From assembly GCA_946699065.1 (NCBI GenBank), contig CAMPDV010000242.1, positions 248,001-312,000 on the forward strand: a DNA stretch of 64,000 nucleotides, in the 5' to 3' direction. The DNA is from Loxodes magnus (Eukaryota > Ciliophora > Karyorelictea > Loxodida > Loxodidae). The notes under the pieces were generated by a model, which worked only from the letters and a program-made list of their open reading frames with translations, did not search any database and was not told the DNA's origin. Made by a program: the position numbers and the translations under genes. This document shows, piece by piece, positions 1 through 64,000 of the stretch (positions are counted from its first letter, which is position 1; every line of letters begins with the position of its first letter).

Positions 1-1
1 C

Positions 2-3000
2 TGTAAGACCATGAGTGGTCACACTAGTAATGTATGATCTGTGGCTATATCCAGTGATTCAGAGTTCATCGTATCGGGAAGTGCAGATTATACGGTGAGA
101 CTATGGGACGTCAATACAGTTACCTGTAAGACCATGAGTGGTCACACTAGTAATGTATGATCTGTGGCTATATCCAGTGATTCAGAGTTCATCGTATCGG
201 GAAGTCATGATTATACGGTGAGACTATGGAACATCAAGACAGTTACCTGTAAGACCATGAGTGGTCACACTGATTATGTATATGCTGTGGCTATATCCAG
301 TGATTCAGAGTTCATCGTATCGGGAAGTGCAGATTAGACGGTGAGACTATGGGACGTCAAGACAGGTACCTGTAAGACCATGAGTGGTCACACTAGTTCT
401 GTATTCTCTGTGGCTATATCCAGTGATTCAGAGTTCATCGTATCGGGAAGTGCAGATTAGACGGTGAGACTATGCGACGTCAAGACAGTTACCTGTAAGA
501 CCATGAGTGGTCACACTAGTAATGTATGATCTGTGGCTATATCCAGTGATTCAGAGTTCATCGTATCGGGAAGTCATGATTAGACGGTGAGACTATGGGA
601 CGTCAAGACAGGTACCTGTAAGACCATGAGTGGCCACACTAGTTATGTATGATCTGTGGCTATATCCAGTGATTCAGAGTTCATCGTATCGGGAAGTGCA
701 GATTATACGGTGAGACTATAAAACGTCAAGACAGGTACCTGTAAGACCATGAGTGGTCACACTAGTTGTGTATATGCTGTGGCTATATCCAGTGATTCAG
801 AGTTCATCGTATCGGGAAGTGCAGATTATACGGTGAGACTATGGGACGTCAAGACAGGTACCTGTAAGACCATGAGTGGTCACACTGATTATGTATATGC
901 TGTGGCTATATCCAGTGATTCAGAGTTCATCGTATCGGGAAGTCATGATTATACGGTGAGACTATGGAACATCAAGACAGTTACCTGTAAGACCATGAGT
1001 GGTCACACTGATTATGTATATGCTGTGGCTATATCCAGTGATTCAGAGTTCATCGTATCGGGAAGTGCAGATTATACGGTGAGACTATGCGACGTCAAGA
1101 CAGGTACCTGTAAAACCATGAGTGGTCACACTAGTAATGTATGATCTGTGGCTATATCCAGTGATTCAGAGTTCATCGTATCGGGAAGTCATGATTAGAC
1201 GGTGAGACTATGCGACGTCAAGACAGTTACCTGTAAGACCATGAGTGGTCACACTGATTATGTATATGCTGTGGCTATATCCAGTGATTCAGAGTTCATC
1301 GTATCGGGAAGTTATTATTAGACGGTGAGACTATGGGACGTCAAGACAGGTACCTGTAAGACCATGAGTGGTCACACTAGTAATGTATGATCTGTGGCTA
1401 TATCCAGTGATTCAGAGTTCATCGTATCGGGAAGTTAAGATTCTACGGTGAGACTATGGGACGTCAAGACAGTTACCTGTAAGACCATGAGTGGTCACAC
1501 TAGTTATGTATGATCTGTGGCTATATCCAGTGATTCAGAGTTCATCGTATCGGGAAGTTAAGATTATACGGTGAGACTATGGGACGTCAAGACAGGTACC
1601 TGTAAGACCATGAGTGGTCACACTAGTAATGTATGATCTGTGGCTATATCCAGTGATTCAGAGTTCATCGTATCGGGAAGTGCAGATTATACGGTGAGAC
1701 TATGGGACGTCAAGACAAGTACCTGTAAGACCATGAGTGGTCACACTAGTAATGTATGATCTGTGGCTATATCCAGTGATTCAGAGTTCATCGTATCGGG
1801 AAGTCATGATTATACGGTGAGACTATGGGACGTCAAGACAGGTACCTGTAAGACCATGAGTGGTCACACTAGTAATGTATGATCTGTGGCTATATCCAGT
1901 GATTCAGAGTTCATCGTATCGGGAAGTTATTATTAGACGGTGAGACTATGCGACGTCAAGACAGTTACCTGTAAAACCATGAGTGGTCACACTAGTAATG
2001 TATGATCTGTGGCTATATCCAGTGATTCAGAGTTCATCGTATCGGGAAGTTATGATTAGACGGTGAGACTATGGAACATCAAGACAGTTACCTGTAAGAC
2101 CATGAGTGGTCACACTGATTATGTATATGCTGTGGCTATATCCAGTGATTCAGAGTTCATCGTATCGGTAAGTGCAAATACTACGGTGAGACTATGGGAC
2201 GTCAAGACAGGTACCTGTAAGACCATGAGTGGCCACACTAGTTATGTATGATCTGTGGCTATATCCAGTGATTCAGAGTTCATCGTATCGGGAAGTCATG
2301 ATTAGACGGTGAGACTATGGGACGTCAAGACAGGTACCTGTAAGACCATGAGTGGTCACACTGATTATGTATATGCTGTGGCTATATCCAGTGATTCAGA
2401 GTTCATCGTATCGGGAAGTCATGATTAGACGGTGAGACTATGGGACGTCAAGACAGGTACCTGTAAGATCATGAGTGGTCACACTAGTTATGTATATGAT
2501 GTGGCTATATCCAGTGATTCAGAGTTCATCGTATCGGGAAGTCATGATTATACGGTGAGACTATGGAACATCAAGACAGTTACCTGTAAGACCATGAGTG
2601 GTCACACTGATTATGTATATGCTGTGGCTATATCCAGTGATTCAGAGTTCATCGTATCGGTAAGTGCAGATTATACGGTGAGACTATGGGACGTCAAGAC
2701 AAGTACCTGTAAGACCATGAGTGGCCACACTAGTTATGTATGATCTGTGGCTATATCCAGTGATTCAGAGTTCATCGTATCGGGAAGTGCAGATTAGACG
2801 GTGAGACTATGGGACGTCAAGACAGGTACCTGTAAGACCATGAGTGGTCACACTAGTAATGTATGATCTGTGGCTATATCCAGTGATTCAGAGTTCATCG
2901 TATCGGGAAGTGCAGATTATACGGTGAGACTATGGGACGTCAATACAGTTACCTGTAAGACCATGAGTGGTCACACTAGTAATGTATGATCTGTGGCTAT

Positions 3001-6000
3001 ATCCAGTGATTCAGAGTTCATCGTATCGGGAAGTCATGATTATACGGTGAGACTATGGAACATCAAGACAGTTACCTGTAAGACCATGAGTGGTCACACT
3101 GATTATGTATATGCTGTGGCTATATCCAGTGATTCAGAGTTCATCGTATCGGGAAGTGCAGATTAGACGGTGAGACTATGGGACGTCAAGACAGGTACCT
3201 GTAAGACCATGAGTGGCCACACTAGTTATGTATGATCTGTGGCTATATCCAGTGATTCAGAGTTCATCGTATCGGGAAGTGCAGATTATACGGTGAGACT
3301 ATGGGACGTCAAGACAAGTACCTGTAAGACCATGAGTGGTCACACTGATTATGTATATGCTGTGGCTATATCCAGTGTCTCAGAGTTCATCGTATCGGGA
3401 AGTCATGATTAGACGGTGAGACTATGGGACGTCAAGACAGGTACCTGTAAGATCATGAGTGGTCACACTAGTTATGTATATGATGTGGCTATATCCAGTG
3501 ATTCAGAGTTCATCGTATCGGGAAGTCATGATTATACGGTGAGACTATGGGACGTCAAGACAGGTACCTGTAAGACCATGAGTGGTCACACTGATTATGT
3601 ATATGCTGTGGCTATATCCAGTGATTCAGAGTTCATCGTATCGGTAAGTGCAGATACTACGGTGAGACTATGGGACGTCAAGACAGGTACCTGTAAGACC
3701 ATGAGTGGTCACACTAGTTCTGTATTCTCTGTGGCTATATCCAGTGATTCAGAGTTCATCGTATCGGGAAGTGCAGATTAGACGGTGAGACTATGCGACG
3801 TCAAGACAGTTACCTGTAAGACCATGAGTGGTCACACTAGTAATGTATGATCTGTGGCTATATCCAGTGATTCAGAGTTCATCGTATCGGGAAGTGCAGA
3901 TTAGACGGTGAGACTATGGGACGTCAAGACAAGTACCTGTAAGACCATGAGTGGTCACACTAGTTGTGTATATGCTGTGGCTTTATCCAGTGATTCAGAG
4001 TTCATCGTATCGGGAAGTGCAGATTATACGGTGAGACTATGGGACGTCAAGACAGGTACCTGTAAGACCATGAGTGGTCACACTGATTATGTATATGCTG
4101 TGGCTATATCCAGTGATTCAGAGTTCATCGTATCGGGAAGTCATGATTATACGGTGAGACTATGGAACATCAAGACAGTTACCTGTAAGACCATGAGTGG
4201 TCACACTGATTATGTATATGCTGTGGCTATATCCAGTGATTCAGAGTTCATCGTATCGGGAAGTGCAGATTATACGGTGAGACTATGGGACGTCAAGACA
4301 GGTACCTGTAAGACCATGAGTGGTCACACTAGTAATGTATGATCTGTGGCTATATCCAGTGATTCAGAGTTCATCGTATCGGGAAGTCATGATTAGACGG
4401 TGAGACTATGCGACGTCAAGACAGTTACCTGTAAGACCATGAGTGGTCACACTGATTATGTATATGCTGTGGCTATATCCAGTGATTCAGAGTTCATCGT
4501 ATCGGGAAGTTATTATTAGACGGTGAGACTATGGGACGTCAAGACAGGTACCTGTAAGACCATGAGTGGTCACACTAGTTGTGTATATGCTGTGGCTATA
4601 TCCAGTGATTCAGAGTTCATCGTATCGGGAAGTGCAGATTAGACGGTGAGACTATGGGACGTCAAGACAGGTACCTGTAAGACCATGAGTGGCCACACTA
4701 GTTATGTATGATCTGTGGCTATATCCAGTGATTCAGAGTTCATCGTATCGGGAAGTGCAGATTATACGGTGAGACTATGGGACGTCAAGACAAGTACCTG
4801 TAAGACCATGAGTGGTCACACTAGTTGTGTATATGCTGTGGCTTTATCCAGTGATTCAGAGTTCATCGTATCGGGAAGTGCAGATTATACGGTGAGACTA
4901 TGGGACGTCAAGACAGGTACCTGTAAGACCATGAGTGGTCACACTGATTATGTATATGCTGTGGCTATATCCAGTGATTCAGAGTTCATCGTATCGGGAA
5001 GTCATGATTATACGGTGAGACTATGGAACATCAAGACAGTTACCTGTAAGACCATGAGTGGTCACACTGATTATGTATATGCTGTGGCTATATCCAGTGA
5101 TTCAGAGTTCATCGTATCGGGAAGTGCAGATTATACGGTGAGACTATGCGACGTCAAGACAGGTACCTGTAAGACCATGAGTGGTCACACTAGTAATGTA
5201 TGATCTGTGGCTATATCCAGTGATTCAGAGTTCATCGTATCGGGAAGTGCAGATTAGACGGTGAGACTATGGGACGTCAAGACAGGTACCTGTAAGACCA
5301 TGAGGTGTCACACACATTATGTATATGATGTGGCTATATCCAGTGATTCAGAGTTCATCGTATCGGGAAGTCATGATTAGACGGTGAGACTATGCGACGT
5401 CAAGACAGTTACCTGTAAGACCATGAGTGGTCACACTGATTATGTATATGCTGTGGCTATATCCAGTGATTCAGAGTTCATCGTATCGGGAAGTTATTAT
5501 TAGACGGTGAGACTATGGGACGTCAAGACAGGTACCTGTAAGACCATGAGTGGTCACACTAGTTGTGTATATGCTGTGGCTTTATCCAGTGATTCAGAGT
5601 TCATCGTATCGGTAAGTTAAGATTCTACGGTGAGACTATGGGACGTCAAGACAGTTACCTGTAAGACCATGAGTGGTCACACTAGTTATGTATGATCTGT
5701 GGCTATATCCAGTGATTCAGAGTTCATCGTATCGGGAAGTTAAGATTATACGGTGAGACTATGGGACGTCAAGACAGGTACCTGTAAGACCATGAGTGGT
5801 CACACTAGTAATGTATGATCTGTGGCTATATCCAGTGATTCAGAGTTCATCGTATCGGGAAGTGCAGATTATACGGTGAGACTATGGGACGTCAAGACAA
5901 GTACCTGTAAGACCATGAGTGGTCACACTAGTTGTGTATATGCTGTGGCTTTATCCAGTGATTCAGAGTTCATCGTATCGGGAAGTGCAGATTATACGGT

Positions 6001-9000
6001 GAGACTATGGGACGTCAAGACAGTTACCTGTAAGACCATGAGTGGTCACACTGATCATGTATATGCTGTGGCTATATCCAGTGATTCAGAGTTCATCGTA
6101 TCGGGAAGTTATGATTATACGGTGAGACTATGGGACGTCAAGACAGGTACCTGTAAGACCATGAGTGGTCACACTAGTTATGTATATGCTGTGGCTTTAT
6201 CCAGTGATTCAGAGTTCATCGTATCGGGAAGTTATGATTAGACGGTGAGACTATGGGACGTCAAGACAGGTACCTGTAAGACCATGAGTGGTCACACTAG
6301 TTGTGTATATGCTGTGGCTATATCCAGTGATTCAGAGTTCATCGTATCGGGAAGTGCAGATTATACGGTGAGACTATGCGACGTCAAGACAGGTACCTGT
6401 AAGACCATGAGTGGTCACACTAGTTATGTATATGCTGTGGCTTTATCCAGTGATTCAGAGTTCATCGTATCGGGAAGTAATGATTATACGGTGAGACTAT
6501 GGGACGTCAAGACAGGTACCTGTAAGACCATGAGTGGTCACACTAGTAATGTATGATCTGTGGCTATATCCAGTGATTCAGAGTTCATCGTATCGGGAAG
6601 TTAAGATTCTACGGTGAGACTATGGGACGTCAAGACAGTTACCTGTAAGACCATGAGTGGTCACACTAGTTATGTATGATCTGTGGCTATATCCAGTGAT
6701 TCAGAGTTCATCGTATCGGGAAGTTAAGATTATACGGTGAGACTATGGGACGTCAAGACAGGTACCTGTAAGACCATGAGTGGTCACACTAGTAATGTAT
6801 GATCTGTGGCTATATCCAGTGATTCAGAGTTCATCGTATCGGGAAGTGCAGATTATACGGTGAGACTATAGGACGTCAAGACAAGTACCTGTAAGACCAT
6901 GAGTGGTCACACTGATCATGTATATGCTGTGGCTATATCCAGTGATTCAGAGTTCATCGTATCGGGAAGTTATGATTATACGGTGAGACTATGGGACGTC
7001 AAGACAGGTACCTGTAAGACCATGAGTGGTCACACTAGTTATGTATATGCTGTGGCTTTATCCAGTGATTCAGAGTTCATCGTATCGGGAAGTTATGATT
7101 AGACGGTGAGACTATGGGACGTCAAGACAGGTACCTGTAAGACCATGAGTGGTCACACTAGTTGTGTATATGCTGTGGCTATATCCAGTGATTCAGAGTT
7201 CATCGTATCGGGAAGTGCAGATTATACGGTGAGACTATGCGACGTCAAGACAGGTACCTGTAAGACCATGAGTGGTCACACAAATTAGGTATATGCTGTG
7301 GCTATATCCAGTGATTCAGAGTTCATCGTATCGGGAAGTAATGATTATACGGTGAGACTATGGGACGTCAAGACAGGTACCTGTAAGACCATGAGTGGTC
7401 ACACTAGTAATGTATGATCTGTGGCTATATCCAGTGATTCAGAGTTCATCGTATCGGGAAGTGCAGATTATACGGTGAGACTATGGAACGTCAAGACAGG
7501 TACCTGTAAGACCATGAGTGGTCACACTAGTTGTGTATATGCTGTCGCTTTATCCAGTGATTCAGAGTTCATCGTATCGGGAAGTAATGATTATACGGTG
7601 AGACTATGGAACGTCAAGACAGGTACCTGTAAGACCATGAGTGGTCACACTAGTTATGTATATGCTGTGGCTATATCCAGTGATTCAGAGTTCATCGTAT
7701 CGGGAAGTAATGATTATACGGTGAGACTATGGGACGTCAAGACAGGTACCTGTAAGACCATGAGTGGTCACACTAGTAATGTATGATCTGTGGCTATATC
7801 CAGTGATTCAGAGTTCATCGTATCGGGAAGTGCAGATTATACGGTGAGACTATGCGACGTCAAGACAGTTACCTGTAAGACCATGAGTGGTCACACTAGT
7901 TATGTATATGCTGTGGCTTTATCCAGTGATTCAGAGTTCATCGTATCGGGAAGTAATGATTATACGGTGAGACTATGGGACGTCAAGACAGGTACCTGTA
8001 AGACCATGAGTGGTCACACAAATTAGGTATATGCTGTGGCTATATCCAGTGATTCAGAGTTCATCGTATCGGGAAGTGCAGATTATACGGTGAGACTATG
8101 GGACGTCAAGACAGGTACCTGTAAGACCATGAGTGGTCACACTAGTTGTGTATATGCTGTCGCTTTATCCAGTGATTCAGAGTTCATCGTATCGGGAAGT
8201 AATGATTATACGGTGAGACTATGGGACGTCAAGACAGGTACCTGTAAGACCATGAGTGGTCACACTAGTTATGTATATGCTGTGGCTATATCCAGTGATT
8301 CAGAGTTCATCGTATCGGGAAGTAATGATTATACGGTGAGACTATGGGACGTCAAGACAGGTACCTGTAAGACCATGAGTGGTCACACTAGTAATGTATG
8401 ATCTGTGGCTATATCCAGTGATTCAGAGTTCATCGTATCGGGAAGTGCAGATTATACGGTGAGACTATGCGACGTCAAGACAGTTACCTGTAAAACCATG
8501 AGTGGTCACACTAGTTATGTATATGCTGTGGCTTTATCCAGTGATTCAGAGTTCATCGTATCGGGAAGTTATGATTAGACGGTGAGACTATGGGACGTCA
8601 AGACAGGTACCTGTAAGACCATGAGTGGTCACACTAGTTGTGTATATGCTGTGGCTATATCCAGTGATTCAGAGTTCATCGTATCGGGAAGTGCAGATTA
8701 TACGGTGAGACTATGCGACGTCAAGACAGGTACCTGTAAGACCATGAGTGGTCACACTAGTTATGTATATGCTGTGGCTTTATCCAGTGATTCAGAGTTC
8801 ATCGTATCGGGAAGTAATGATTATACGGTGAGACTATGGGACGTCAAGACAGGTACCTGTAAGACCATGAGTGGTCACACTAGTAATGTATGATCTGTGG
8901 CTATATCCAGTGATTCAGAGTTCATCGTATCGGGAAGTGCAGATTATACGGTGAGACTATGGAACGTCAAGACAGGTACCTGTAAGACCATGAGTGGTCA

Positions 9001-12000
9001 CACTAGTTATGTATGATCTGTGGCTATATCCAGTGATTCAGAGTTCATCGTATCGGGAAGTAATGATTATACGGTGAGACTATGGAACATCAAGACAGGT
9101 ACCTGTAAGACCATGAGTGGTCACACTGATCATGTATATGCTGTGGCTATATCCAGTGATTCAGAGTTCATCGTATCGGGAAGTCATGATTAGACGGTGA
9201 GACTATGGGACGTCAAGACAGGTACCTGTAAGATCATGAGTGGTCACACTAGTTATGTATATGATGTGGCTATATCCAGTGATTCAGAGTTCATCGTATC
9301 GGGAAGTGCAGATTAGACGGTGAGACTATGGGACGTCAAGACAGGTACCTGTAAGACCATGAGTGGTCACACTAGTTGTGTATATGATGTGGCTATATCC
9401 AGTGATTCAGAGTTCATCGTATCGGGAAGTGCAGATTATACGGTGAGACTATGGAACGTCAAGACAGGTACCTGTAAGACCATGAGTGGTCACACAAATT
9501 AGGTATATGCTGTGGCTATATCCAGTGATTCAGAGTTCATCGTATCGGGAAGTAATGATTATACGGTGAGACTATGGGACGTCAAGACAGGTACCTGTAA
9601 GACCATGAGTGGTCACACTAGTAATGTATGATCTGTGGCTATATCCAGTGATTCAGAGTTCATCGTATCGGGAAGTGCAGATTAGACGGTGAGACTATGG
9701 GACGTCAAGACAGGTACCTGTAAGACCATGAGTGGTCACACTAGTTGTGTATATGCTGTCGCTTTATCCAGTGATTCAGAGTTCATCGTATCGGGAAGTA
9801 ATGATTATACGGTGAGACTATGGAACGTCAAGACAGGTACCTGTAAGACCATGAGGTGTCACACACATTATGTATATGCTGTGGCTATATCCAGTGATTC
9901 AGAGTTCATCGTATCGGGAAGTTATGATTAGACGGTGAGACTATGGAACGTCAAGACAGGTACCTGTAAGACCATGAGTGGTCACAATAGTTATGTATAT
10001 GCTTTGGCTATATCCAGTGATTCAGAGTTCATCGTATCGGGAAGTGCAGATTAGACGGTGAGACTATGGGACGTCAAGACAGGTACCTGTAAGACCATGA
10101 GTGGTCACACTAGTTGTGTATATGCTGTGGCTTTATCCAGTGATTCAGAGTTCATCGTATCGGGAAGTGCAGATTATACGGTGAGACTATGGGACGTCAA
10201 GACAGGTACCTGTAAGACCATGAGTGGTCACACTAGTAATGTATGATCTGTGGCTATATCCAGTGATTCAGAGTTCATCGTATCGGGAAGTGCAGATTAG
10301 ACGGTGAGACTATGGGACGTCAAGACAGGTACCTGTAAGACCATGAGTGGTCACACTAGTAATGTATGATCTGTGGCTATATCCAGTGATTCAGAGTTCA
10401 TCGTATCGGGAAGTGCAGATTATACGGTGAGACTATGGAACATCAAGACAGGTACCTGTAAGACCATGAGTTGTCACACTAGTTATGTATATGCTGTGGC
10501 TATATCCAGTGATTCAGAGTTCATCGTATCGGGAAGTAATGATTATACGGTGAGACTATGGGACGTCAAGACAGGTACCTGTAAGACCATGAGTGGTCAC
10601 ACTAGTAATGTATGATCTGTGGCTTTATCCAGTGATTCAGAGTTCATCGTATCGGGAAGTGCAGATTATACGGTGAGACTATGGGACGTCAAGACAGTTA
10701 CCTGTAAAACCATGAGTGGTCACACTAGTAATGTATGATCTGTGGCTATATCCAGTGATTCAGAGTTCATCGTATCGGGAAGTGCAGATTAGACGGTGAG
10801 ACTATGGGACGTCAAGACAAGTACCTGTAAGACCATGAGTGGTCACACTGATCATGTATATGCTGTGGCTATATCCAGTGATTCAGAGTTCATCGTATCG
10901 GGAAGTTATGATTATACGGTGAGACTATGGGACGTCAAGACAGGTACCTGTAAGATCATGAGTGGTCACACTAGTTATGTATATGATGTGGCTATATCCA
11001 GTGATTCAGAGTTCATCGTATCGGGAAGTCATGATTATACGGTGAGACTATGGAACATCAAGACAGGTACCTGTAAGACCATGAGTGTTCACACTAGTTA
11101 TGTATATGCTGTGGCTATATCCAGTGATTCAGAGTTCATCGTATCGGGAAGTTAAGATTATACGGTGAGACTATGGGACGTCAAGACAGGTACCTGTAAG
11201 ACCATGAGTGGTCACACTAGTAATGTATGATCTGTGGCTATATCCAGTGATTCAGAGTTCATCGTATCGGGAAGTCATGATTAGACGGTGAGACTATGGG
11301 ACGTCAAGACAAGTACCTGTAAGACCATGAGTGGTCACACTAGTAATGTATGATCTGTGGCTATATCCAGTGATTCAGAGTTCATCGTATCGGGAAGTGC
11401 AGATTAGACGGTGAGACTATGGGACGTCAAGACAGGTACCTGTAAGACCATGAGTGGTCACACTAGTTGTGTATATGCTGTCGCTTTATCCAGTGATTCA
11501 GAGTTCATCGTATCGGGAAGTGCAGATTATACGGTGAGACTATGGAACGTCAAGACAGGTACCTGTAAGACCATGAGGTGTCACACACATTATGTATATG
11601 CTGTGGCTATATCCAGTGATTCAGAGTTCATCGTATCGGGAAGTTATGATTAGACGGTGAGACTATGGAACGTCAAGACAGGTACCTGTAAGACCATGAG
11701 TGGTCACAATAGTTATGTATATGCTTTGGCTATATCCAGTGATTCAGAGTTCATCGTATCGGGAAGTGCAGATTATACGGTGAGACTATGGGACGTCAAG
11801 ACAGGTACCTGTAAGACCATGAGTGGTCACACACATTATGTATATGATGTGGCTATATCCAGTGATTCAGAGTTCATCGTATCGGGAAGTGCAGATTATA
11901 CGGTGAGACTATGCGACGTCAAGACAGGTACCTGTAAAACCATGAGTGGTCACACTAGTAATGTATGATCTGTGGCTATATCCAGTGATTCAGAGTTCAT

Positions 12001-26395: not shown

Positions 26396-26430
26396 TTATG
26401 TATATGATGTGGCTGTATATCCTAGTGATA
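26396..26430 (+). other. Scrambled unit / breakpoint
   Basis: The spacing between successive GTTCATCGTA motifs is 50 bases here instead of 123. After GTA at 26,395 the sequence jumps back to TTATGTATATGATGTGGCT, then carries four extra bases (GT, T and A) within about 20 bases of otherwise normal repeat before normal sequence resumes at 26,431. The matching place in copy 2 (33,5xx-33,7xx) has intact units and is 73 bases longer. This is the only rearranged unit in the window. Confidence 0.9.
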
Positions 26431-50751: not shown

Positions 50752-50756
50752 AGATT
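50752..50756 (+). other. Single-base insertion (+1 frame change)
   Basis: The usual ACT-AGT-TGT-GTA reads ACTAGATTGTGTA, with an extra A at 50,754. The frame moves by one and stays shifted until the deletion after 59,608. No other unit in the window carries this insertion. Confidence 0.9.
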
Positions 50757-53700
50757 GTGTATATGCTGTGGCTATATCCAGTGATTCAGAGTTCATCGTA
50801 TCGGGAAGTCATGATTATACGGTGAGACTATGCGACGTCAAGACAGGTACCTGTAAGACCATGAGTGGTCACACTAGTTATGTATATGCTGTGGCTTTAT
50901 CCAGTGATTCAGAGTTCATCGTATCGGGAAGTTATTATTAGACGGTGAGACTATGGGACGTCAAGACAGGTACCTGTAAGACCATGAGTGGTCACACTAG
51001 TAATGTATGATCTGTGGCTATATCCAGTGATTCAGAGTTCATCGTATCGGGAAGTGCAGATTATACGGTGAGACTATGGGACGTCAAGACAAGTACCTGT
51101 AAGACCATGAGTGGTCACACTAGTTGTGTATATGCTGTGGCTTTATCCAGTGATTCAGAGTTCATCGTATCGGGAAGTCATGATTAGACGGTGAGACTAT
51201 GGGACGTCAAGACAGGTACCTGTAAGACCATGAGTGGTCACACTGATTATGTATATGCTGTGGCTATATCCAGTGATTCAGCGTTCATCGTATCGGGAAG
51301 TGCAGATTATACGGTGAGACTATGCGACGTCAAGACAGGTACCTGTAAAACCATGAGTGGTCACACTAGTAATGTATGATCTGTGGCTATATCCAGTGAT
51401 TCAGAGTTCATCGTATCGGGAAGTCATGATTAGACGGTGAGACTATGCGACGTCAAGACAGTTACCTGTAAGACCATGAGTGGTCACACTGATTATGTAT
51501 ATGCTGTGGCTATATCCAGTGATTCAGAGTTCATCGTATCGGGAAGTTATGATTAGACGGTGAGACTATGGGACGTCAAGACAGGTACCTGTAAGACCAT
51601 GAGTGGTCACACTAGTTATGTATGATCTGTGGCTATATCCAGTGATTCAGAGTTCATCGTATCGGGAAGTTATTATTAGACGGTGAGACTATGGAACATC
51701 AAGACAGGTACCTGTAAGACCATGAGTGGTCACACTGATTATGTATATGCTGTGGCTATATCCAGTGATTCAGAGTTCATCGTATCGGGAAGTCATGATT
51801 ATACGGTGAGACTATGCGACGTCAAGACAAGTACCTGTAAGACCATGAGTGGTCACACTAGTTGTGTATATGCTGTGGCTTTATCCAGTGATTCAGAGTT
51901 CATCGTATCGGGAAGTCATGATTAGACGGTGAGACTATGGGACGTCAAGACAGGTACCTGTAAGACCATGAGTGGTCACACTAGTTATGTATGATCTGTG
52001 GCTATATCCAGTGATTCAGAGTTCATCGTATCGGGAAGTTATTATTAGACGGTGAGACTATGGAACATCAAGACAGGTACCTGTAAGACCATGAGTGGTC
52101 ACACTAGTTATGTATATGATGTGGCTATATCCAGTGATTCAGAGTTCATCGTATCGGGAAGTCATGATTATACGGTGAGACTATGCGACGTCAAGACAAG
52201 TACCTGTAAGACCATGAGTGGTCACACTAGTTGTGTATATGCTGTGGCTTTATCCAGTGATTCAGAGTTCATCGTATCGGGAAGTGCAGATTATACGGTG
52301 AGACTATGGGACGTCAAGACAGGTACCTGTAAGACCATGAGGTGTCACACACATTAGGTATATGCTGTGGCTTTATCCAGTGATTCAGAGTTCATCGTAT
52401 CGGGAAGTGCAGATTATACGGTGAGACTATGGGACGTCAAGACAGGTACCTGTAAGACCATGAGTGGTCACACTAGTTATGTATATGATGTGGCTATATC
52501 CAGTGATTCAGAGTTCATCGTATCGGGAAGTCATGATTATACGGTGAGACTATGCGACGTCAAGACAAGTACCTGTAAGACCATGAGTGGTCACACTAGT
52601 TGTGTATATGCTGTGGCTTTATCCAGTGATTCAGAGTTCATCGTATCGGGAAGTGCAGATTATACGGTGAGACTATGGGACGTCAAGACAGGTACCTGTA
52701 AGACCATGAGGTGTCACACACATTAGGTATATGCTGTGGCTTTATCCAGTGATTCAGAGTTCATCGTATCGGGAAGTGCAGATTATACGGTGAGACTATG
52801 GGACGTCAAGACAGGTACCTGTAAGACCATGAGTGGTCACACTAGTTCTGTATATGCTTTGGCTTTATCCAGTGATTCAGAGTTCATCGTATCGGGAAGT
52901 TATTATTAGACGGTGAGACTATGGGACGTCAAGACAGGTACCTGTAAGACCATGAGTGGTCACACTAGTAATGTATGATCTGTGGCTATATCCAGTGATT
53001 CAGAGTTCATCGTATCGGGAAGTGCAGATTATACGGTGAGACTATGGGACGTCAAGACAAGTACCTGTAAGACCATGAGTGGTCACACTAGTTGTGTATA
53101 TGCTGTGGCTTTATCCAGTGATTCAGAGTTCATCGTATCGGGAAGTGCAGATTATACGGTGAGACTATGGGACGTCAAGACAGGTACCTGTAAGACCATG
53201 AGTGGTCACACTGATTATGTATATGCTGTGGCTATATCCAGTGATTCAGCGTTCATCGTATCGGGAAGTGCAGATTAGACGGTGAGACTATGGGACGTCA
53301 AGACAGGTACCTGTAAGACCATGAGTGGTCACACTAGTTGTGTATATGCTGTGGCTATATCCAGTGATTCAGAGTTCATCGTATCGGGAAGTCATGATTA
53401 TACGGTGAGACTATGGGACGTCAAGACAGGTACCTGTAAGACCATGAGTGGTCACACTAGTTGTGTATATGCTGTGGCTATATCCAGTGATTCAGAGTTC
53501 ATCGTATCGGGAAGTCATGATTATACGGTGAGACTATGCGACGTCAAGACAGGTACCTGTAAGACCATGAGTGGTCACACTAGTTATGTATATGCTGTGG
53601 CTTTATCCAGTGATTCAGAGTTCATCGTATCGGGAAGTAATGATTATACGGTGAGACTATGGGACGTCAAGACAGGTACCTGTAAGACCATGAGTGGTCA

Positions 53701-56700
53701 CACTAGTAATGTATGATCTGTGGCTATATCCAGTGATTCAGAGTTCATCGTATCGGGAAGTGCAGATTATACGGTGAGACTATGGGACGTCAAGACAGGT
53801 ACCTGTAAGACCATGAGTGGTCACACTAGTTGTGTATATGCTGTCGCTTTATCCAGTGATTCAGAGTTCATCGTATCGGGAAGTAATGATTATACGGTGA
53901 GACTATGGAACGTCAAGACAGGTACCTGTAAGACCATGAGTGGTCACACTAGTTATGTATATGCTGTGGCTATATCCAGTGATTCAGAGTTCATCGTATC
54001 GGGAAGTAATGATTATACGGTGAGACTATGGGACGTCAAGACAGGTACCTGTAAGACCATGAGTGGTCACACTAGTTCTGTATATGCTTTGGCTTTATCC
54101 AGTGATTCAGAGTTCATCGTATCGGGAAGTTATTATTAGACGGTGAGACTATGGGACGTCAAGACAGGTACCTGTAAGACCATGAGTGGTCACACTAGTA
54201 ATGTATGATCTGTGGCTATATCCAGTGATTCAGAGTTCATCGTATCGGGAAGTGCAGATTATACGGTGAGACTATGGGACGTCAAGACAAGTACCTGTAA
54301 GACCATGAGTGGTCACACTAGTTGTGTATATGCTGTGGCTTTATCCAGTGATTCAGAGTTCATCGTATCGGGAAGTCATGATTAGACGGTGAGACTATGG
54401 GACGTCAAGACAGGTACCTGTAAGACCATGAGTGGTCACACTGATTATGTATATGCTGTGGCTATATCCAGTGATTCAGCGTTCATCGTATCGGGAAGTG
54501 CAGATTATACGGTGAGACTATGCGACGTCAAGACAGGTACCTGTAAAACCATGAGTGGTCACACTAGTAATGTATGATCTGTGGCTATATCCAGTGATTC
54601 AGAGTTCATCGTATCGGGAAGTCATGATTAGACGGTGAGACTATGCGACGTCAAGACAGTTACCTGTAAGACCATGAGTGGTCACACTGATTATGTATAT
54701 GCTGTGGCTATATCCAGTGATTCAGAGTTCATCGTATCGGGAAGTTATGATTAGACGGTGAGACTATGGGACGTCAAGACAGGTACCTGTAAGACCATGA
54801 GTGGTCACACTAGTTATGTATGATCTGTGGCTATATCCAGTGATTCAGAGTTCATCGTATCGGGAAGTTATTATTAGACGGTGAGACTATGGAACATCAA
54901 GACAGGTACCTGTAAGACCATGAGTGGTCACACTGATTATGTATATGCTGTGGCTATATCCAGTGATTCAGAGTTCATCGTATCGGGAAGTCATGATTAT
55001 ACGGTGAGACTATGCGACGTCAAGACAAGTACCTGTAAGACCATGAGTGGTCACACTAGTTGTGTATATGCTGTGGCTTTATCCAGTGATTCAGAGTTCA
55101 TCGTATCGGGAAGTCATGATTATACGGTGAGACTATGCGACGTCAAGACAAGTACCTGTAAGACCATGAGTGGTCACACTAGTTGTGTATATGCTGTGGC
55201 TTTATCCAGTGATTCAGAGTTCATCGTATCGGGAAGTGCAGATTATACGGTGAGACTATGGGACGTCAAGACAGGTACCTGTAAGACCATGAGGTGTCAC
55301 ACACATTAGGTATATGCTGTGGCTTTATCCAGTGATTCAGAGTTCATCGTATCGGGAAGTGCAGATTATACGGTGAGACTATGGGACGTCAAGACAGGTA
55401 CCTGTAAGACCATGAGTGGTCACACTAGTTATGTATATGATGTGGCTATATCCAGTGATTCAGAGTTCATCGTATCGGGAAGTCATGATTATACGGTGAG
55501 ACTATGCGACGTCAAGACAAGTACCTGTAAGACCATGAGTGGTCACACTAGTTGTGTATATGCTGTGGCTTTATCCAGTGATTCAGAGTTCATCGTATCG
55601 GGAAGTGCAGATTATACGGTGAGACTATGGGACGTCAAGACAGGTACCTGTAAGACCATGAGGTGTCACACACATTAGGTATATGCTGTGGCTTTATCCA
55701 GTGATTCAGAGTTCATCGTATCGGGAAGTGCAGATTATACGGTGAGACTATGGGACGTCAAGACAGGTACCTGTAAGACCATGAGTGGTCACACTAGTTC
55801 TGTATATGCTTTGGCTTTATCCAGTGATTCAGAGTTCATCGTATCGGGAAGTTATTATTAGACGGTGAGACTATGGGACGTCAAGACAGGTACCTGTAAG
55901 ACCATGAGTGGTCACACTAGTAATGTATGATCTGTGGCTATATCCAGTGATTCAGAGTTCATCGTATCGGGAAGTGCAGATTATACGGTGAGACTATGGG
56001 ACGTCAAGACAAGTACCTGTAAGACCATGAGTGGTCACACTAGTTGTGTATATGCTGTGGCTTTATCCAGTGATTCAGAGTTCATCGTATCGGGAAGTGC
56101 AGATTATACGGTGAGACTATGGGACGTCAAGACAGGTACCTGTAAGACCATGAGTGGTCACACTGATTATGTATATGCTGTGGCTATATCCAGTGATTCA
56201 GCGTTCATCGTATCGGGAAGTGCAGATTAGACGGTGAGACTATGGGACGTCAAGACAGGTACCTGTAAGACCATGAGTGGTCACACTAGTTGTGTATATG
56301 CTGTGGCTATATCCAGTGATTCAGAGTTCATCGTATCGGGAAGTCATGATTATACGGTGAGACTATGGGACGTCAAGACAGGTACCTGTAAGACCATGAG
56401 TGGTCACACTAGTTGTGTATATGCTGTGGCTATATCCAGTGATTCAGAGTTCATCGTATCGGGAAGTCATGATTATACGGTGAGACTATGCGACGTCAAG
56501 ACAGGTACCTGTAAGACCATGAGTGGTCACACTAGTTATGTATATGCTGTGGCTTTATCCAGTGATTCAGAGTTCATCGTATCGGGAAGTAATGATTATA
56601 CGGTGAGACTATGGGACGTCAAGACAGGTACCTGTAAGACCATGAGTGGTCACACTAGTAATGTATGATCTGTGGCTATATCCAGTGATTCAGAGTTCAT

Positions 56701-59608
56701 CGTATCGGGAAGTGCAGATTAGACGGTGAGACTATGGGACGTCAAGACAGGTACCTGTAAGACCATGAGTGGTCACACTAGTTGTGTATATGCTGTCGCT
56801 TTATCCAGTGATTCAGAGTTCATCGTATCGGGAAGTAATGATTATACGGTGAGACTATGGAACGTCAAGACAGGTACCTGTAAGACCATGAGTGGTCACA
56901 CTAGTTATGTATATGCTGTGGCTATATCCAGTGATTCAGAGTTCATCGTATCGGGAAGTAATGATTATACGGTGAGACTATGGAACGTCAAGACAGGTAC
57001 CTGTAAGACCATGAGTGGTCACACTAGTAATGTATGATCTGTGGCTATATCCAGTGATTCAGAGTTCATCGTATCGGGAAGTGCAGATTATACGGTGAGA
57101 CTATGCGACGTCAAGACAGTTACCTGTAAAACCATGAGTGGTCACACTAGTTATGTATATGCTGTGGCTTTATCCAGTGATTCAGAGTTCATCGTATCGG
57201 GAAGTTATGATTAGACGGTGAGACTATGGGACGTCAAGACAGGTACCTGTAAGACCATGAGTGGTCACACTAGTTGTGTATATGCTGTGGCTATATCCAG
57301 TGATTCAGAGTTCATCGTATCGGGAAGTGCAGATTATACGGTGAGACTATGCGACGTCAAGACAGGTACCTGTAAGACCATGAGTGGTCACACTAGTTAT
57401 GTATATGCTGTGGCTTTATCCAGTGATTCAGAGTTCATCGTATCGGGAAGTGCAGATTATACGGTGAGACTATGGGACGTCAAGACAAGTACCTGTAAGA
57501 CCATGAGTGGTCACACTGATTATGTATATGCTGTGGCTATATCCAGTGATTCAGAGTTCATCGTATCGGGAAGTGCAGATTATACGGTGAGACTATGGGA
57601 CGTCAAGACAGGTACCTGTAAGACCATGAGTGGTCACACTAGTTATGTATATGATGTGGCTATATCCAGTGATTCAGAGTTCATCGTATCGGGAAGTGCA
57701 GATTATACGGTGAGACTATGCGACGTCAAGACAAGTACCTGTAAGACCATGAGTGGTCACACTAGTTGTGTATATGCTGTGGCTTTATCCAGTGATTCAG
57801 AGTTCATCGTATCGGGAAGTGCAGATTATACGGTGAGACTATGGAACGTCAAGACAGGTACCTGTAAGACCATGAGGTGTCACACACATTATGTATATGC
57901 TGTGGCTATATCCAGTGATTCAGAGTTCATCGTATCGGGAAGTGCAGATTATACGGTGAGACTATGGAACGTCAAGACAGGTACCTGTAAGACCATGAGT
58001 GGTCACACTAGTAATGTATGATCTGTGGCTATATCCAGTGATTCAGAGTTCATCGTATCGGGAAGTGCAGATTATACGGTGAGATTATGCGACGTCAAGA
58101 CAGGTACCTGTAAAACCATGAGTGGTCTCACTAGTAATGTATGATCTGTGGCTATATCCAGTGATTCAGAGTTCATCGTATCGGGAAGTCATGATTAGAC
58201 GGTGAGACTATGCGACGTCAAGACAGGTACCTGTAAGACCATGAGTGGTCACACTGATTATGTATATGCTGTGGCTATATCCAGTGATTCAGCGTTCATC
58301 GTATCGGGAAGTGCAGATTAGACGGTGAGACTATGGGACGTCAAGACAGGTACCTGTAAGACCATGAGTGGTCACACTAGTTCTGTATATGCTTTGGCTT
58401 TATCCAGTGATTCAGAGTTCATCGTATCGGGAAGTTATTATTAGACGGTGAGACTATGGGACGTCAAGACAGGTACCTGTAAGACCATGAGTGGTCACAC
58501 TAGTAATGTATGATCTGTGGCTATATCCAGTGATTCAGAGTTCATCGTATCGGGAAGTGCAGATTATACGGTGAGACTATGGGACGTCAAGACAAGTACC
58601 TGTAAGACCATGAGTGGTCACACTAGTTGTGTATATGCTGTGGCTTTATCCAGTGATTCAGAGTTCATCGTATCGGGAAGTGCAGATTATACGGTGAGAC
58701 TATGGGACGTCAAGACAGGTACCTGTAAGACCATGAGTGGTCACACTGATTATGTATATGCTGTGGCTATATCCAGTGATTCAGAGTTCATCGTATCGGG
58801 AAGTGCAGATTATACGGTGAGACTATGCGACGTCAAGACAGGTACCTGTAAAACCATGAGTGGTCACACTAGTAATGTATGATCTGTGGCTATATCCAGT
58901 GATTCAGAGTTCATCGTATCGGGAAGTCATGATTAGACGGTGAGACTATGCGACGTCAAGACAGTTACCTGTAAGACCATGAGTGGTCACACTGATTATG
59001 TATATGCTGTGGCTATATCCAGTGATTCAGAGTTCATCGTATCGGGAAGTTATTATTAGACGGTGAGACTATGGGACGTCAAGACAGGTACCTGTAAGAC
59101 CATGAGTGGTCACACTAGTTCTGTATATGCTTTGGCTTTATCCAGTGATTCAGAGTTCATCGTATCGGGAAGTTATTATTAGACGGTGAGACTATGGGAC
59201 GTCAAGACAGGTACCTGTAAGACCATGAGTGGTCACACTAGTAATGTATGATCTGTGGCTATATCCAGTGATTCAGAGTTCATCGTATCGGGAAGTGCAG
59301 ATTATACGGTGAGACTATGGGACGTCAAGACAAGTACCTGTAAGACCATGAGTGGTCACACTAGTAATGTATGATCTGTGGCTATATCCAGTGATTCAGA
59401 GTTCATCGTATCGGTAAGTGCAGATTCTACGGTGAGACTATGGGACGTCAAGACAGGTACCTGTAAGACCATGAGTGGTCACACTGATTATGTATATGCT
59501 GTGGCTATATCCAGTGATTCAGAGTTCATCGTATGGGGAAGTCATGATTATACGGTGAGACTATGGAACATCAAGACAGGTACCTGTAAGACCATGAGTG
59601 GTCACACT
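50756..59608 (+). CDS. WD40 reading-frame block C (partial; conditional on stop reassignment)
   Basis: This block has 2,951 codons between a one-base insertion (50,754) and a one-base deletion (after 59,608). The two indels offset each other, so blocks B and D share a frame. It contains the 24-26-unit higher-order repeat and five of the six units in which the conserved Glu of SSDSEF is Ala (GCG at 51,281, 53,249, 54,479, 56,201 and 58,292; the sixth, at 49,189, is in block B). It also contains the longest stretch free of TAA/TAG/TGA in the window (57,218-58,021). Stop placement follows the same pattern as elsewhere. Confidence 0.5.
50892..54089 (+). repeat. Higher-order repeat HOR-2, copy a (26 units)
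   Basis: Units from 50,892 to about 51,920 match sequence 3,198 bases (26 units) downstream. Units from about 52,160 to 54,02x match sequence 2,952 bases (24 units) downstream. Copy a therefore holds two extra units at about 51.92-52.16 kb. It contains the Glu-to-Ala variant at 51,281 and 53,249 and a three-unit (369-base) internal duplication seen in the pair of HTH-TAG sites at 52,355 and 52,724. Confidence 0.85.
54090..56974 (+). repeat. Higher-order repeat HOR-2, copy b (24 units)
   Basis: This is the second copy of the block described for copy a, including the Glu-to-Ala codons at 54,479 and 56,201 and the same 369-base internal duplication (HTH-TAG at 55,307 and 55,676). A single-base difference turns a tyrosine codon of copy a (53,768 region, D-TAT-T) into TAG at about 56,720. 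Similarity fades where copy a has WDV and copy b has WNV near 56,970. Confidence 0.85.
57218..58021 (+). other. Longest stop-free run, six and a half WD40 blades (267 codons)
   Basis: This run is open in the standard code across more than six units, close to the seven blades of one propeller. Units include SCVYAVAI, SYVYAVAL, DYVYAVAI, SYVYDVAI, SCVYAVAL and the MRCHTHYV variant. The apparent start is a GTG valine codon within TVRL and the end is the TGA of an N-V-*-S unit, so it is a gap between reassigned or nonsense codons and not a gene with its own signals. Confidence 0.6.
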
Positions 59609-59612
59609 ATTA
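59606..59612 (+). other. Single-base deletion (-1 frame change)
   Basis: The usual CAC-ACT-GAT-TAT-GTA reads CACACTATTATGTA, lacking the G after 59,608. It restores the frame used before 50,754. Related units at 27.6, 34.9 and 42.1 kb have the G. Confidence 0.9.
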
Positions 59613-62600
59613 TGTATATGCTGTGGCTATATCCAGTGATTCAGAGTTCATCGTATCGGGAAGTGCAGATTATACGGTGAGACTATGGGACGTCAAGACA
59701 GGTACCTGTAAGACCATGAGTGGTCACACTAGTAATGTATGATCTGTGGCTATATCCAGTGATTCAGAGTTCATCGTATCGGGAAGTCATGATTATACGG
59801 TGAGACTATGGGACGTCAAGACAAGTACCTGTAAGACCATGAGTGGTCACACTGATTATGTATATGCTGTGGCTATATCCAGTGATTCAGAGTTCATCGT
59901 ATCGGGAAGTCATGATTATACGGTGAGACTATGGAACATCAAGACAGGTACCTGTAAGACCATGAGTGGTCACACTGATTATGTATATGCTGTGGCTATA
60001 TCCAGTGATTCAGAGTTCATCGTATCGGGAAGTGCAGATTATACGGTGAGACTATGCGACGTCAAGACAGGTACCTGTAAAACCATGAGTGGTCACACTA
60101 GTAATGTATGATCTGTGGCTATATCCAGTGATTCAGAGTTCATCGTATCGGGAAGTCATGATTAGACGGTGAGACTATGCGACGTCAAGACAGTTACCTG
60201 TAAGACCATGAGTGGTCACACTGATTATGTATATGCTGTGGCTATATCCAGTGATTCAGAGTTCATCGTATCGGGAAGTTATTATTAGACGGTGAGACTA
60301 TGGGACGTCAAGACAGGTACCTGTAAGACCATGAGTGGTCACACTAGTTCTGTATATGCTTTGGCTATATCCAGTGATTCAGAGTTCATCGTATCGTGAA
60401 GTGCAGATTAGACGGTGAGACTATGGGACGTCAAGACAGGTACCTGTAAGATCATGAGTGGTCACACTAGTTATGTATATGCTGTGGCTTTATCCAGTGA
60501 TTCAGAGTTCATCGTATCGGGAAGTCATGATTAGACGGTGAGACTATGCGACGTCAAGACAGTTACCTGTAAGACCATGAGTGGTCACACTAGTTATGTA
60601 TTCACTGTGGCTTTATCCAGTGATTCAGAGTTCATCGTATCGGGAAGTTATTATTAGACGGTGAGACTATGGGACGTCAAGACAGGTACCTGTAAGACCA
60701 TGAGTGGTCACACTAGTAATGTATGATCTGTGGCTATATCCAGTGATTCAGAGTTCATCGTATGGGGAAGTCATGATTATACGGTGAGACTATGGAACAT
60801 CAAGACAGGTACCTGTAAGACCATGAGTGGTCACACTGATTATGTATATGCTGTGGCTATATCCAGTGATTCAGAGTTCATCGTATCGGGAAGTGCAGAT
60901 TATACGGTGAGACTATGGGACGTCAAGACAGGTACCTGTAAGACCATGAGTGGCCACACTAGTTATGTATGATCTGTGGCTATATCCAGTGATTCAGAGT
61001 TCATCGTATCGGGAAGTCATGATTAGACGGTGAGACTATGCGACGTCAAGACAGTTACCTGTAAGACCATGAGTGGTCACACTGATTATGTATATGCTGT
61101 GGCTATATCCAGTGATTCAGAGTTCATCGTATCGGGAAGTTATTATTAGACGGTGAGACTATGGGACGTCAAGACAGGTACCTGTAAGACCATGAGTGGT
61201 CACACTAGTTGTGTATATGCTGTGGCTTTATCCAGTGATTCAGAGTTCATCGTATCGGGAAGTTATTATTAGACGGTGAGACTATGGGACGTCAAGACAG
61301 GTACCTGTAAGACCATGAGTGGTCACACTGATTATGTATATGCTGTGGCTATATCCAGTGATTCAGAGTTCATCGTATCGGGAAGTGCAGATTATACGGT
61401 GAGACTATGGGACGTCAAGACAGTTACCTGTAAGACCATGAGTGGTCACACTAGTAATGTATGATCTGTGGCTATATCCAGTGATTCAGAGTTCATCGTA
61501 TCGGGAAGTGCAGATTATACGGTGAGACTATGGAACATCAAGACAGGTACCTGTAAGACCATGAGTGGTCACACTAGTTATGTATCTGCTGTGGCTATAT
61601 CCAGTGATTCAGAGTTCATCGTATCGGGAAGTCATGATTAGACGGTGAGACTATGGGACGTCAAGACAGGTACCTGTAAGATCATGAGTGGTCACACTAG
61701 TTATGTATATGATGTGGCTATATCCAGTGATTCAGAGTTCATCGTATCGGGAAGTCATGATTATACGGTGAGACTATGGAACATCAAGACAGTTACCTGT
61801 AAGACCATGAGTGGTCACACTGATTATGTATATGCTGTGGCTATATCCAGTGATTCAGAGTTCATCGTATCGGTAAGTGCAGATACTACGGTGAGACTAT
61901 GGGACGTCAAGACAGGTACCTGTAAGACCATGAGTGGTCACACTAGTTCTGTATTCTCTGTGGCTATATCCAGTGATTCAGAGTTCATCGTATCGGGAAG
62001 TGCAGATTAGACGGTGAGACTATGGGACGTCAAGACAGGTACCTGTAAGACCATGAGTGGTCTCACTAGTAATGTATGATCTGTGGCTATATCCAGTGAT
62101 TCAGAGTTCATCGTATCGGGAAGTCATGATTATACGGTGAGACTATGCGACGTCAAGACAGGTACCTGTAAGACCATGAGTGGTCACACTAGTTATGTAT
62201 GATCTGTGGCTATATCCAGTGATTCAGAGTTCATCGTATCGGTAAGTGCAGATACTACGGTGAGACTATGGGACGTCAAGACAGGTACCTGTAAGACCAT
62301 GAGTGGTCACACTAGTTCTGTATTCTCTGTGGCTATATCCAGTGATTCAGAGTTCATCGTATCGGGAAGTGCAGATTAGACGGTGAGACTATGCGACGTC
62401 AAGACAGTTACCTGTAAGACCATGAGTGGTCACACTAGTAATGTATGATCTGTGGCTATATCCAGTGATTCAGAGTTCATCGTATCGGGAAGTGCAGATT
62501 AGACGGTGAGACTATGGGACGTCAAGACAGGTACCTGTAAGACCATGAGTGGTCACACTAGTAATGTATGATCTGTGGCTATATCCAGTGATTCAGAGTT

Positions 62601-63999
62601 CATCGTATCGGGAAGTGCAGATTATACGGTGAGACTATGGGACGTCAAGACAAGTACCTGTAAGACCATGAGTGGTCACACTAGTTGTGTATATGCTGTG
62701 GCTTTATCCAGTGATTCAGAGTTCATCGTATCGGGAAGTGCAGATTATACGGTGAGACTATGGGACGTCAAGACAGGTACCTGTAAGACCATGAGTGGTC
62801 ACACTGATTATGTATATGCTGTGGCTATATCCAGTGATTCAGAGTTCATCGTATCGGGAAGTCATGATTATACGGTGAGACTATGGAACATCAAGACAGG
62901 TACCTGTAAGACCATGAGTGGTCACACTGATTATGTATATGCTGTGGCTATATCCAGTGATTCAGAGTTCATCGTATCGGGAAGTGCAGATTATACGGTG
63001 AGACTATGCGACGTCAAGACAGGTACCTGTAAAACCATGAGTGGTCACACTAGTAATGTATGATCTGTGGCTATATCCAGTGATTCAGAGTTCATCGTAT
63101 CGGGAAGTCATGATTATACGGTGAGACTATGGGACGTCAAGACAGTTACCTGTAAGACCATGAGTGGTCACACTGATTATGTATATGCTGTGGCTTTATC
63201 CAGTGATTCAGAGTTCATCGTATCGGGAAGTTATTATTAGACGGTGAGACTATGGGACGTCAAGACAGGTACCTGTAAGACCATGAGTGGTCACACTGAT
63301 CATGTATATGCTGTGGCTATATCCAGTGATTCAGAGTTCATCGTATCGGGAAGTTATGATTATACGGTGAGACTATGGGACGTCAAGACAGGTACCTGTA
63401 AGACCATGAGTGGTCACACTAGTTATGTATATGCTGTGGCTATATCCAGTGATTCAGAGTTCATCGTATCGGGAAGTGCAGATTAGACGGTGAGACTATG
63501 GGACGTCAAGACAGGTACCTGTAAGACCATGAGTGGTCACACTAGTTGTGTATATGCTGTGGCTATATCCAGTGATTCAGAGTTCATCGTATCGGGAAGT
63601 CATGATTATACGGTGAGACTATGGGACGTCAAGACAAGTACCTGTAAGACCATGAGTGGTCACACTAGTTGTGTATATGCTGTGGCTTTATCCAGTGATT
63701 CAGAGTTCATCGTATCGGGAAGTGCAGATTATACGGTGAGACTATGGGACGTCAAGACAGTTACCTGTAAGACCATGAGTGGTCACACTGATCATGTATA
63801 TGCTGTGGCTATATCCAGTGATTCAGAGTTCATCGTATCGGGAAGTTATGATTATACGGTGAGACTATGGGACGTCAAGACAGGTACCTGTAAGACCATG
63901 AGTGGTCACACTAGTTATGTATATGCTGTGGCTTTATCCAGTGATTCAGAGTTCATCGTATCGGGAAGTGCAGATTAGACGGTGAGACTATGGGACGTC
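59611..63999 (+). CDS. WD40 reading-frame block D (partial; runs off the window)
   Basis: This block has 1,463 codons of the same repeat, continuing past the right edge. It reuses rare unit types seen near the left end: the KIMSGHT unit followed by a VSVSAD-TTVRLW unit and then SSVFSV (61,645-62,010, compare 3,416-3,781), and an uninterrupted four-blade run (62,575-63,063, compare 4,715-5,203). No C-terminal domain, terminator or poly(A)-like tract is reached. Confidence 0.5.
60397..60399 (+). other. TGA at the SGS glycine position (second instance)
   Basis: The TCG-TGA-AGT change is the same as at 12,008, followed here by GCA-GAT-TAG. Recurrence at a distant unit suggests either copying between units or repeated mutation. 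Confidence 0.8.
62575..63063 (+). other. Stop-free run of four WD40 blades (right member of an end-to-end pair)
   Basis: This has the same blade order as 4,715-5,203, with one amino-acid difference that I can see (KTGTC instead of KTVTC in the WNI unit). Neighbouring rare units (SSVFSV at 61,94x and 62,32x) also resemble those at 3,72x, so this end of the window is related to the left end. Confidence 0.6.
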
Positions 64000-64000
64000 A

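Follow-up and report, generated by a model that had tools for sequence, protein, structure and literature searches.

We found a 64-kb array of WD40 units whose in-frame stop codons lie mostly at codons for the binding face, which suggests that these stop codons stand for amino acids. With moderate confidence, expressed as a judgement and not as a computed posterior, we take the stops to be old alleles of a recognition code that are read as residues. A 123-bp (41-codon) WD40 unit repeated in tandem makes up the entire 64,000-nt window (the whole stretch of DNA analyzed here), in which 520 units were located via their conserved core, and the array extends past both window ends. The window would thus be one portion of a huge array of recognition-type WD40 repeats.

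Organization of the WD40 array

Read in the frame GCT ATA TCC AGT GAT, the unit gives the 41-residue WD40 repeat AISSDSEFIVSGSxDxTVRLWDVKTGTCKTMSGHTxxVxxV, and the Pfam WD40 profile (PF00400), applied to the first 18 units with their stops read through, matched 18 stretches with 578 bits. The unit-to-unit spacing is exactly 123 bp in 516/519 cases, with the exceptions of 173 (at 26.4 kb), 124 (at 50.7 kb) and 122 bp (at 59.6 kb), in agreement with the three frame changes reported by an earlier, sequence-only reading of this DNA. These exceptions divide the array into blocks of 215, 197, 72 and 36 units (Table 1). Counts per codon refer below to 516 regular units; of the 520, the final unit and those bordering one of the three irregular spacings are excluded. 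Among these there are 178 distinct sequences, and random pairs of units differ on average by 7.9 of the 123 nt. No seven-unit periodicity was found across the array units, and no tRNA gene was found within the 64-kb window, all of which is array.

Table 1. Coordinates of the array, its frame blocks and selected stop codons within the window
Feature	Position	Strand	Remark
Tandem array of 41-codon WD40 units, 520 found	1..64000	+	Runs off both ends; Pfam WD40 on first 18 units
First codon-39 TGA (R1 position)	35..37	+	Type present in 230/516 regular units
Frame block 1	2..26395	+	GCT codon 1 of one unit at 44
Irregular junction, codon 10 joined to 36/37; scattered single-base insertions	26396..26430	+	Spacing 173 vs 123
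Frame block 2	26431..50752	+	Codon 1 at 26539
Single-base insertion	50753..50756	+	Spacing 124; private to one unit
Frame block 3	50757..59608	+	Codon 1 at 50771
Single-base deletion	59609..59610	+	Spacing 122; private to one unit
Frame block 4	59611..64000	+	Codon 1 at 59626
59-unit block (7,257 bp), about 3 copies	24643..48432	+	Copy 1 holds the irregular junction; coordinates computed from unit numbers
Rare stop TAA, conserved codon 21	719..721	+	
Rare stop TAG, conserved codon 21	6869..6871	+	
Rare stop TGA, conserved codon 12	12008..12010	+	
Rare stop TAA, codon 2	23171..23173	+	
Rare stop TGA, conserved codon 12	60397..60399	+	

Between copies of the 59-unit block, 89/92 compared unit pairs are identical, a near-identity that points to either a very recent duplication of part of the array or an assembly loop. 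The site of the 26.4-kb junction is regular in the other copies of this block and each odd spacing occurs a single time; hence, the frame changes look private. The insertions at that junction resemble noisy-read errors, perhaps from a poorly covered stretch. There are no recurrent length variants versus 44 substitution variants that are each shared by three or more units, and the spread-out length variants expected of a non-coding satellite are represented by nothing but the three odd spacings, each seen once. Loxodes, whose code (table 27) would suit the array, is reported to have assemblies in which low-complexity tandem repeats amount to 231–359 Mbp.

Eight units read through with table 27 were predicted from a single sequence to form a propeller in the best of five models (pLDDT 89.1, pTM 0.86), with pLDDT values of 81 or more in two of the five models and 35 or less in three. 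The top Foldseek matches are WD40 propellers, including ODA16 and the eight-bladed design Tako8. The modeling shows the read-through units to be compatible with a predicted propeller fold and says nothing on protein production.

A phage, plasmid, viral or prokaryotic origin was rejected. DNA matches were found neither in phages and plasmids (query, the first 2,000 bases) nor in viral contigs, and eleven pattern matches in genome contigs look like chance, as tblastn at E 1e-3 detected no resemblance between them and the array. Protein searches (length windows of about 406–1290, 89–283 and 1375–4375 residues, with about 8,000 top word-sharing candidates scored in each) returned no predicted protein more than 55% identical to the array among the 120 best of 7684, 240 and 6682 matches. 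The best sequence matches, which share with the array long runs of similar WD40 blades, are cyanobacterial NACHT/NB-ARC-WD40 proteins, Mortierella and Ceratobasidium proteins and 2ymu. Unlike the array, these bacterial and fungal multi-blade proteins have ordinary reading frames, and those among the matches listed are no longer than 4,259 residues, in part because of the length window of the search. In open-licence full texts, we found no report of a WD40 array with in-frame stops or of such an array in karyorelicts.

In-frame stops and hypervariable codons

Under the standard code, the four frame blocks hold 460 stops and the longest open run is 268 codons, i.e., fewer than seven blades; a stop is present in 351 of the 520 units, and the 169 stop-free units never form a series longer than five. 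The 516 regular units contain 455 in-frame stops, 450 of which fall at only four codons (37, 39, 14 and 16). As the sequence-only reading had claimed, each of the three stop types keeps to its own WD40 positions: TGA occurs in V-stop-SVA (codon 39, 230 units, with TCT as the next codon in 230/230), TAG in D-stop-TVRLWD (codon 16, 150 units) and HTH/HTN-stop-V (codon 37, 11 units, after CAT in 8 and AAT in 3) and TAA in GS-stop-D (codon 14, 59 units). Its tally of 12 TGA, 9 TAG and 3 TAA in the first 20 units recounts as 11, 9 and 3 in complete units, with the twelfth TGA in the cut starting unit. The remaining five stops are one TAA at codon 2, two TGA at codon 12 and one TAA and one TAG at codon 21. 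Since units are copied from one another, the fixed positions largely reflect descent, and the 455 stops trace back to roughly four common alleles plus four rare types rather than to 455 independent events.

Codes in which one or two stop types are sense were rejected, as they leave between 61 and 399 stops in the four frame blocks, and reading all three as sense leaves zero, which is true by definition. A code with UAR as Tyr, the Mesodinium type, was also rejected: it renders the stops at codons 14, 16 and 37 synonymous with TAT, yet 230 TGA are left over.

In WD40 propellers, top-face contacts come mostly from R1, R1-2 and D-1, of which R1 lies, with R2, between two Val/Leu/Ile residues, R1-2 is two residues before R1 and D-1 is the residue before the tetrad Asp (PMC3419727). 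From the motif V38-[39]-[40]-V41 and from spacing, we infer that codon 39 corresponds to R1 and codon 37 to R1-2; by the same kind of evidence, codon 14 is probably D-1 and codon 16 D+1. Three of the four array positions, mapped in this manner, are top-face contact positions. The four codons are hypervariable, with 54 combinations observed, and the codons flanking them (13, 17 and 38) are invariant.

The closest parallel is the NWD/HNWD family of Podospora anserina (het-d, het-e), the WD40 units of which are likewise near-identical, in tandem and of high internal conservation. The published sources consulted besides PMC3419727 are PMC2873952, PMC1805685, PMC6394959, PMC12005148, PMC11441545, PMC12222747 and PMC4967479. 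Codons 7, 9, 25 and 27 of the Podospora NWD repeats are reported to be under strong positive selection and to be paired around the conserved codons 8 and 26, and the residues tabulated for het-E at the four selected positions include S, W, D and K. The Podospora spacings 9–25 and 7–27 equal those from 39 to 14 and from 37 to 16 of the next unit in the array, so that, on this mapping, the hypervariable codons of both systems number four, flank a conserved codon pairwise and are equally spaced. The array displays the near-identical tandem units of an NWD/HNWD-type gene as well as, with the mapping by motif and spacing, its four-codon top-face diversification. The two differ in that functional Podospora alleles have about 10–11 repeats versus 520 units here, and in that the standard code leaves the Podospora genes open apart from stops in some disrupted alleles, whereas the array holds its 460 stops. 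Podospora NWD/HNWD proteins also feature NACHT and HET domains; the window covers repeats only, with no flank.

We divided the 55 nucleotide variants into common (in 21 or more units) and rare (in 20 or fewer). The four codons, which make up 12/123 nt, contain 13/25 common variants (p = 1e-7) versus 5/30 rare ones (p = 0.16), which show no concentration. Likewise, 11/12 sites in the four codons vary versus 3/19 fourfold third positions (p = 9e-5), and 7/55 variants are synonymous versus 22% expected. Indifference to codon structure is, accordingly, untrue of the common variants and true of the rare ones. The rare nonsynonymous variants bear no relation to WD40 column tolerance (rho 0.07), such that conserved columns are not avoided; the fit to column tolerance is also non-significant for the common variants (rho 0.27, p = 0.09) and for total array entropy (rho 0.20, p = 0.20). 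Given this lack of a significant fit to general WD40 column tolerance, it is the four named codons that carry the case. The old variation looks like selection for residue diversity and the recent variation looks unconstrained, with no purifying selection on rare variants.

Several further features of the variants were observed. There is no excess of transitions (19/55 variants; 8/30 among rare ones) and, relative to the consensus, G>T changes number 11 versus 2 for C>A. The variable codons mostly end in T, always so at codons 15, 26, 36 and 40 and in 505/516 units at codon 37, and a non-T third base at codons 14, 16, 37 and 39 is confined to the stops plus GCA, TTC and AAG. The tetrad His (codon 34) is Leu in 18 units. 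Tyr replaces the tetrad Asp (codon 15) in 68 units, all of which have TAT at codon 14 and either TAG (67) or AAG (1) at codon 16.

The age of the stop alleles was gauged from the number of unit backgrounds on which they occur, rarefied over 382 units from which copies 2 and 3 of the 59-unit block were removed. TGA (19.6 backgrounds) and the codon-16 TAG (18.1) resemble the sense alleles in this respect (median 18.3, range 11.5 to 22.3), which implies that at least two of the stops circulated alongside the selected diversity. The codon-14 TAA, with 10.5, is below every sense allele compared, and the codon-37 TAG, with 11 units, is too rare for this comparison. TGA blades pair with 13 combinations at codons 14–16 of the following unit. 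A working protein with these stops in the array is impossible under the standard code. The stops were either sense codons at one time or, like the diversity, founder alleles of a dead gene whose amplification came later.

Candidate meanings of the stops and competing explanations

Residues at the stop sites were examined in 290 distinct homologous blades from the 120 best listed homologs of a query that lacked stops and carried Tyr, among other residues, at the stop sites, a set biased, if at all, away from Trp and Gln at these sites. An earlier set (Trp 39% at codon 39, Gln 46% at codon 16) was discarded, as its query itself carried Trp and Gln there. Trp makes up 6.9% of the codon-39 residues, the third-highest Trp share among the 41 columns after codons 21 and 37; it is only the seventh commonest residue at this codon, with N, Y, T, S, R and F being commoner. 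Ser, which follows every codon-39 TGA of the array, is the commonest residue after Trp in the homologs (13/20), as it is after R, L, N and T. A reading of UGA as Trp is consistent with these homolog sequences. At codons 14, 16 and 37, Gln accounts for 2.8, 5.5 and 3.1% and Glu for 3.1, 7.6 and 2.1%, respectively. The homolog column alone thus gives no pointer to Gln, and the notion that Gln is a very frequent residue at the TAA/TAG sites has weaker support than the earlier reading gave it. The statement that Gln and Glu are inseparable from this window stands.

Complete reassignment has precedents: all three stops are sense in Condylostoma magnum and a Parduczia-like karyorelict (UAR as Gln, UGA as Trp), in Loxodes (table 27) and Amoebophrya ex Karlodinium and in Blastocrithidia (UAR as Glu, UGA as Trp). 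The array shares with these codes the presence of three stop types inside a protein-like frame and of TGA at a Trp-tolerant site. It differs from them in its basis: stop-free codes have been shown by many genes, tRNAs, profiling or mass spectrometry, and the reading of the array comes from one repeat array.

The earlier claim of a coding array under such a code survives in part. The failure of every single or paired reassignment to open the array, the seating of the common stops at four recognition codons, the mixed backgrounds of TGA and the codon-16 TAG and the tolerance of Trp at codon 39 speak for it. Against it stand the low rank of Trp there, the complete absence of CAA, CAG and TGG at the stop-bearing codons of the regular units, the nearness of TAT and the lack of purifying selection on rare variants. 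The stops at codons 14, 16 and 37 are also explicable by plain mutation, being one base from TAT, which is common at those codons.

The foremost competing explanation, which we regard as a real possibility that falls short of probable, is a decayed standard-code WD40 recognition gene: having lost its function, it acquired a small number of nonsense mutations, and unequal crossing-over then multiplied and shuffled its units to form a non-coding satellite. The selected diversity and the stops would then both be founder alleles from a modest number of diversified units, and such founder amplification also accounts for stops on many backgrounds. A decayed gene further fits the neutral-looking variation in one or two units (2/11 synonymous versus 22% expected), the lack of avoidance of conserved columns, the stops at conserved codons, the single step from TAT to three of the common stops, the short stop-free series and the state of the tetrad Trp (codon 21), which is retained in 407/516 units and replaced by Cys in 107. 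However, it requires that all four common stop alleles landed in recognition codons by chance. By our own calculation, which involves few events, 9 of the 27 one-step stop targets lie in the four codons, such that three of three stops would fall there with a chance of 84/2925 (~0.03) and four of four, with TGA added as a target, with 210/20475 (~0.01); were the four codons merely hypermutable (13/25), the chance would be ~0.07. Decay also has to contend with the codon-39 TGA, which is two steps from each other allele at that codon, where no TGG remains, and with a frame preserved in all but 3/519 spacings.

A second alternative, which we consider improbable, holds that the array is a silent store of blades, untranslated itself, that donates short tracts by gene conversion to an expressed WD40 gene, with selection on the expressed copies and stops tolerated in the donor. 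Pseudogene WD40 units of Podospora show concerted evolution with active loci, and the codon blocks 36–40 and 14–16 of the array recombine freely into the 54 combinations; but the two-thirds majority of stop-bearing units (351/520) would be poor donors, and the window, which holds nothing besides the array, does not include an expressed partner. Very unlikely, finally, is the generation of the stops from CAG, CAA, CGA or TGG by repeat-induced point mutation (RIP) or deamination in a fungal-type array: RIP prefers CpA and inactivated two Podospora NWD family members, and CAG to TAG and CAA to TAA fit CpA-type changes, yet the 516 units show no C-to-T change at any of the consensus unit's 8 CpA and 4 CpG sites, and only 19/55 variants are transitions.

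We favor reassignment on the grounds that 450/455 stops and 13/25 common variants fall in four codons, at the same positions that are selected in Podospora NWD, and slightly so for the contrast of zero recurrent length variants to 44 shared substitutions. It is disfavored by the neutral look of the rare variants, by the rare stops at conserved codons, by three of the four common stop alleles being one base from TAT and by the rarity of stop-free codes. The few backgrounds of the codon-14 TAA, the lack of a seven-unit periodicity, the three frame changes and the failure of the relatives to single out either Trp or Gln weaken it further.

A potential repertoire of binding faces

Under the reading of the stops as amino acids, selection on the protein would have driven the diversity at R1-2, R1, D-1 and D+1, with UGA probably read as Trp and UAA and UAG as Gln or Glu. 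The organism would have given each of the three stop codons a sense meaning, in the manner of Condylostoma, karyorelict ciliates, Amoebophrya ex Karlodinium and Blastocrithidia. Unequal exchange and short conversion tracts may shuffle the codon blocks 36–40 and 14–16 among units, and this shuffling could yield a repertoire of binding faces, either within a single, very long protein of many propellers or in the form of a blade store. We tentatively raise the possibility, which we hold as doubtful, that the array is coding for more than 500 WD40 blades, in which reassigned codons contribute to the set of residues used at the recognition face and shuffling keeps creating new binding surfaces; to our knowledge, this would exceed by far any WD40 repertoire described.

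Should the stops be sense codons, the array would point to an organism that combines a stop-free code with a recognition repertoire greatly exceeding the Podospora alleles of 10–11 repeats, and reassigned codons would figure among the selected residues. Otherwise, a recognition gene would have become a satellite in which the mark of past selection survives. Either way, the placement of stops at recognition versus conserved codons offers, within a single repeat array, an internal test of reassignment versus decay.
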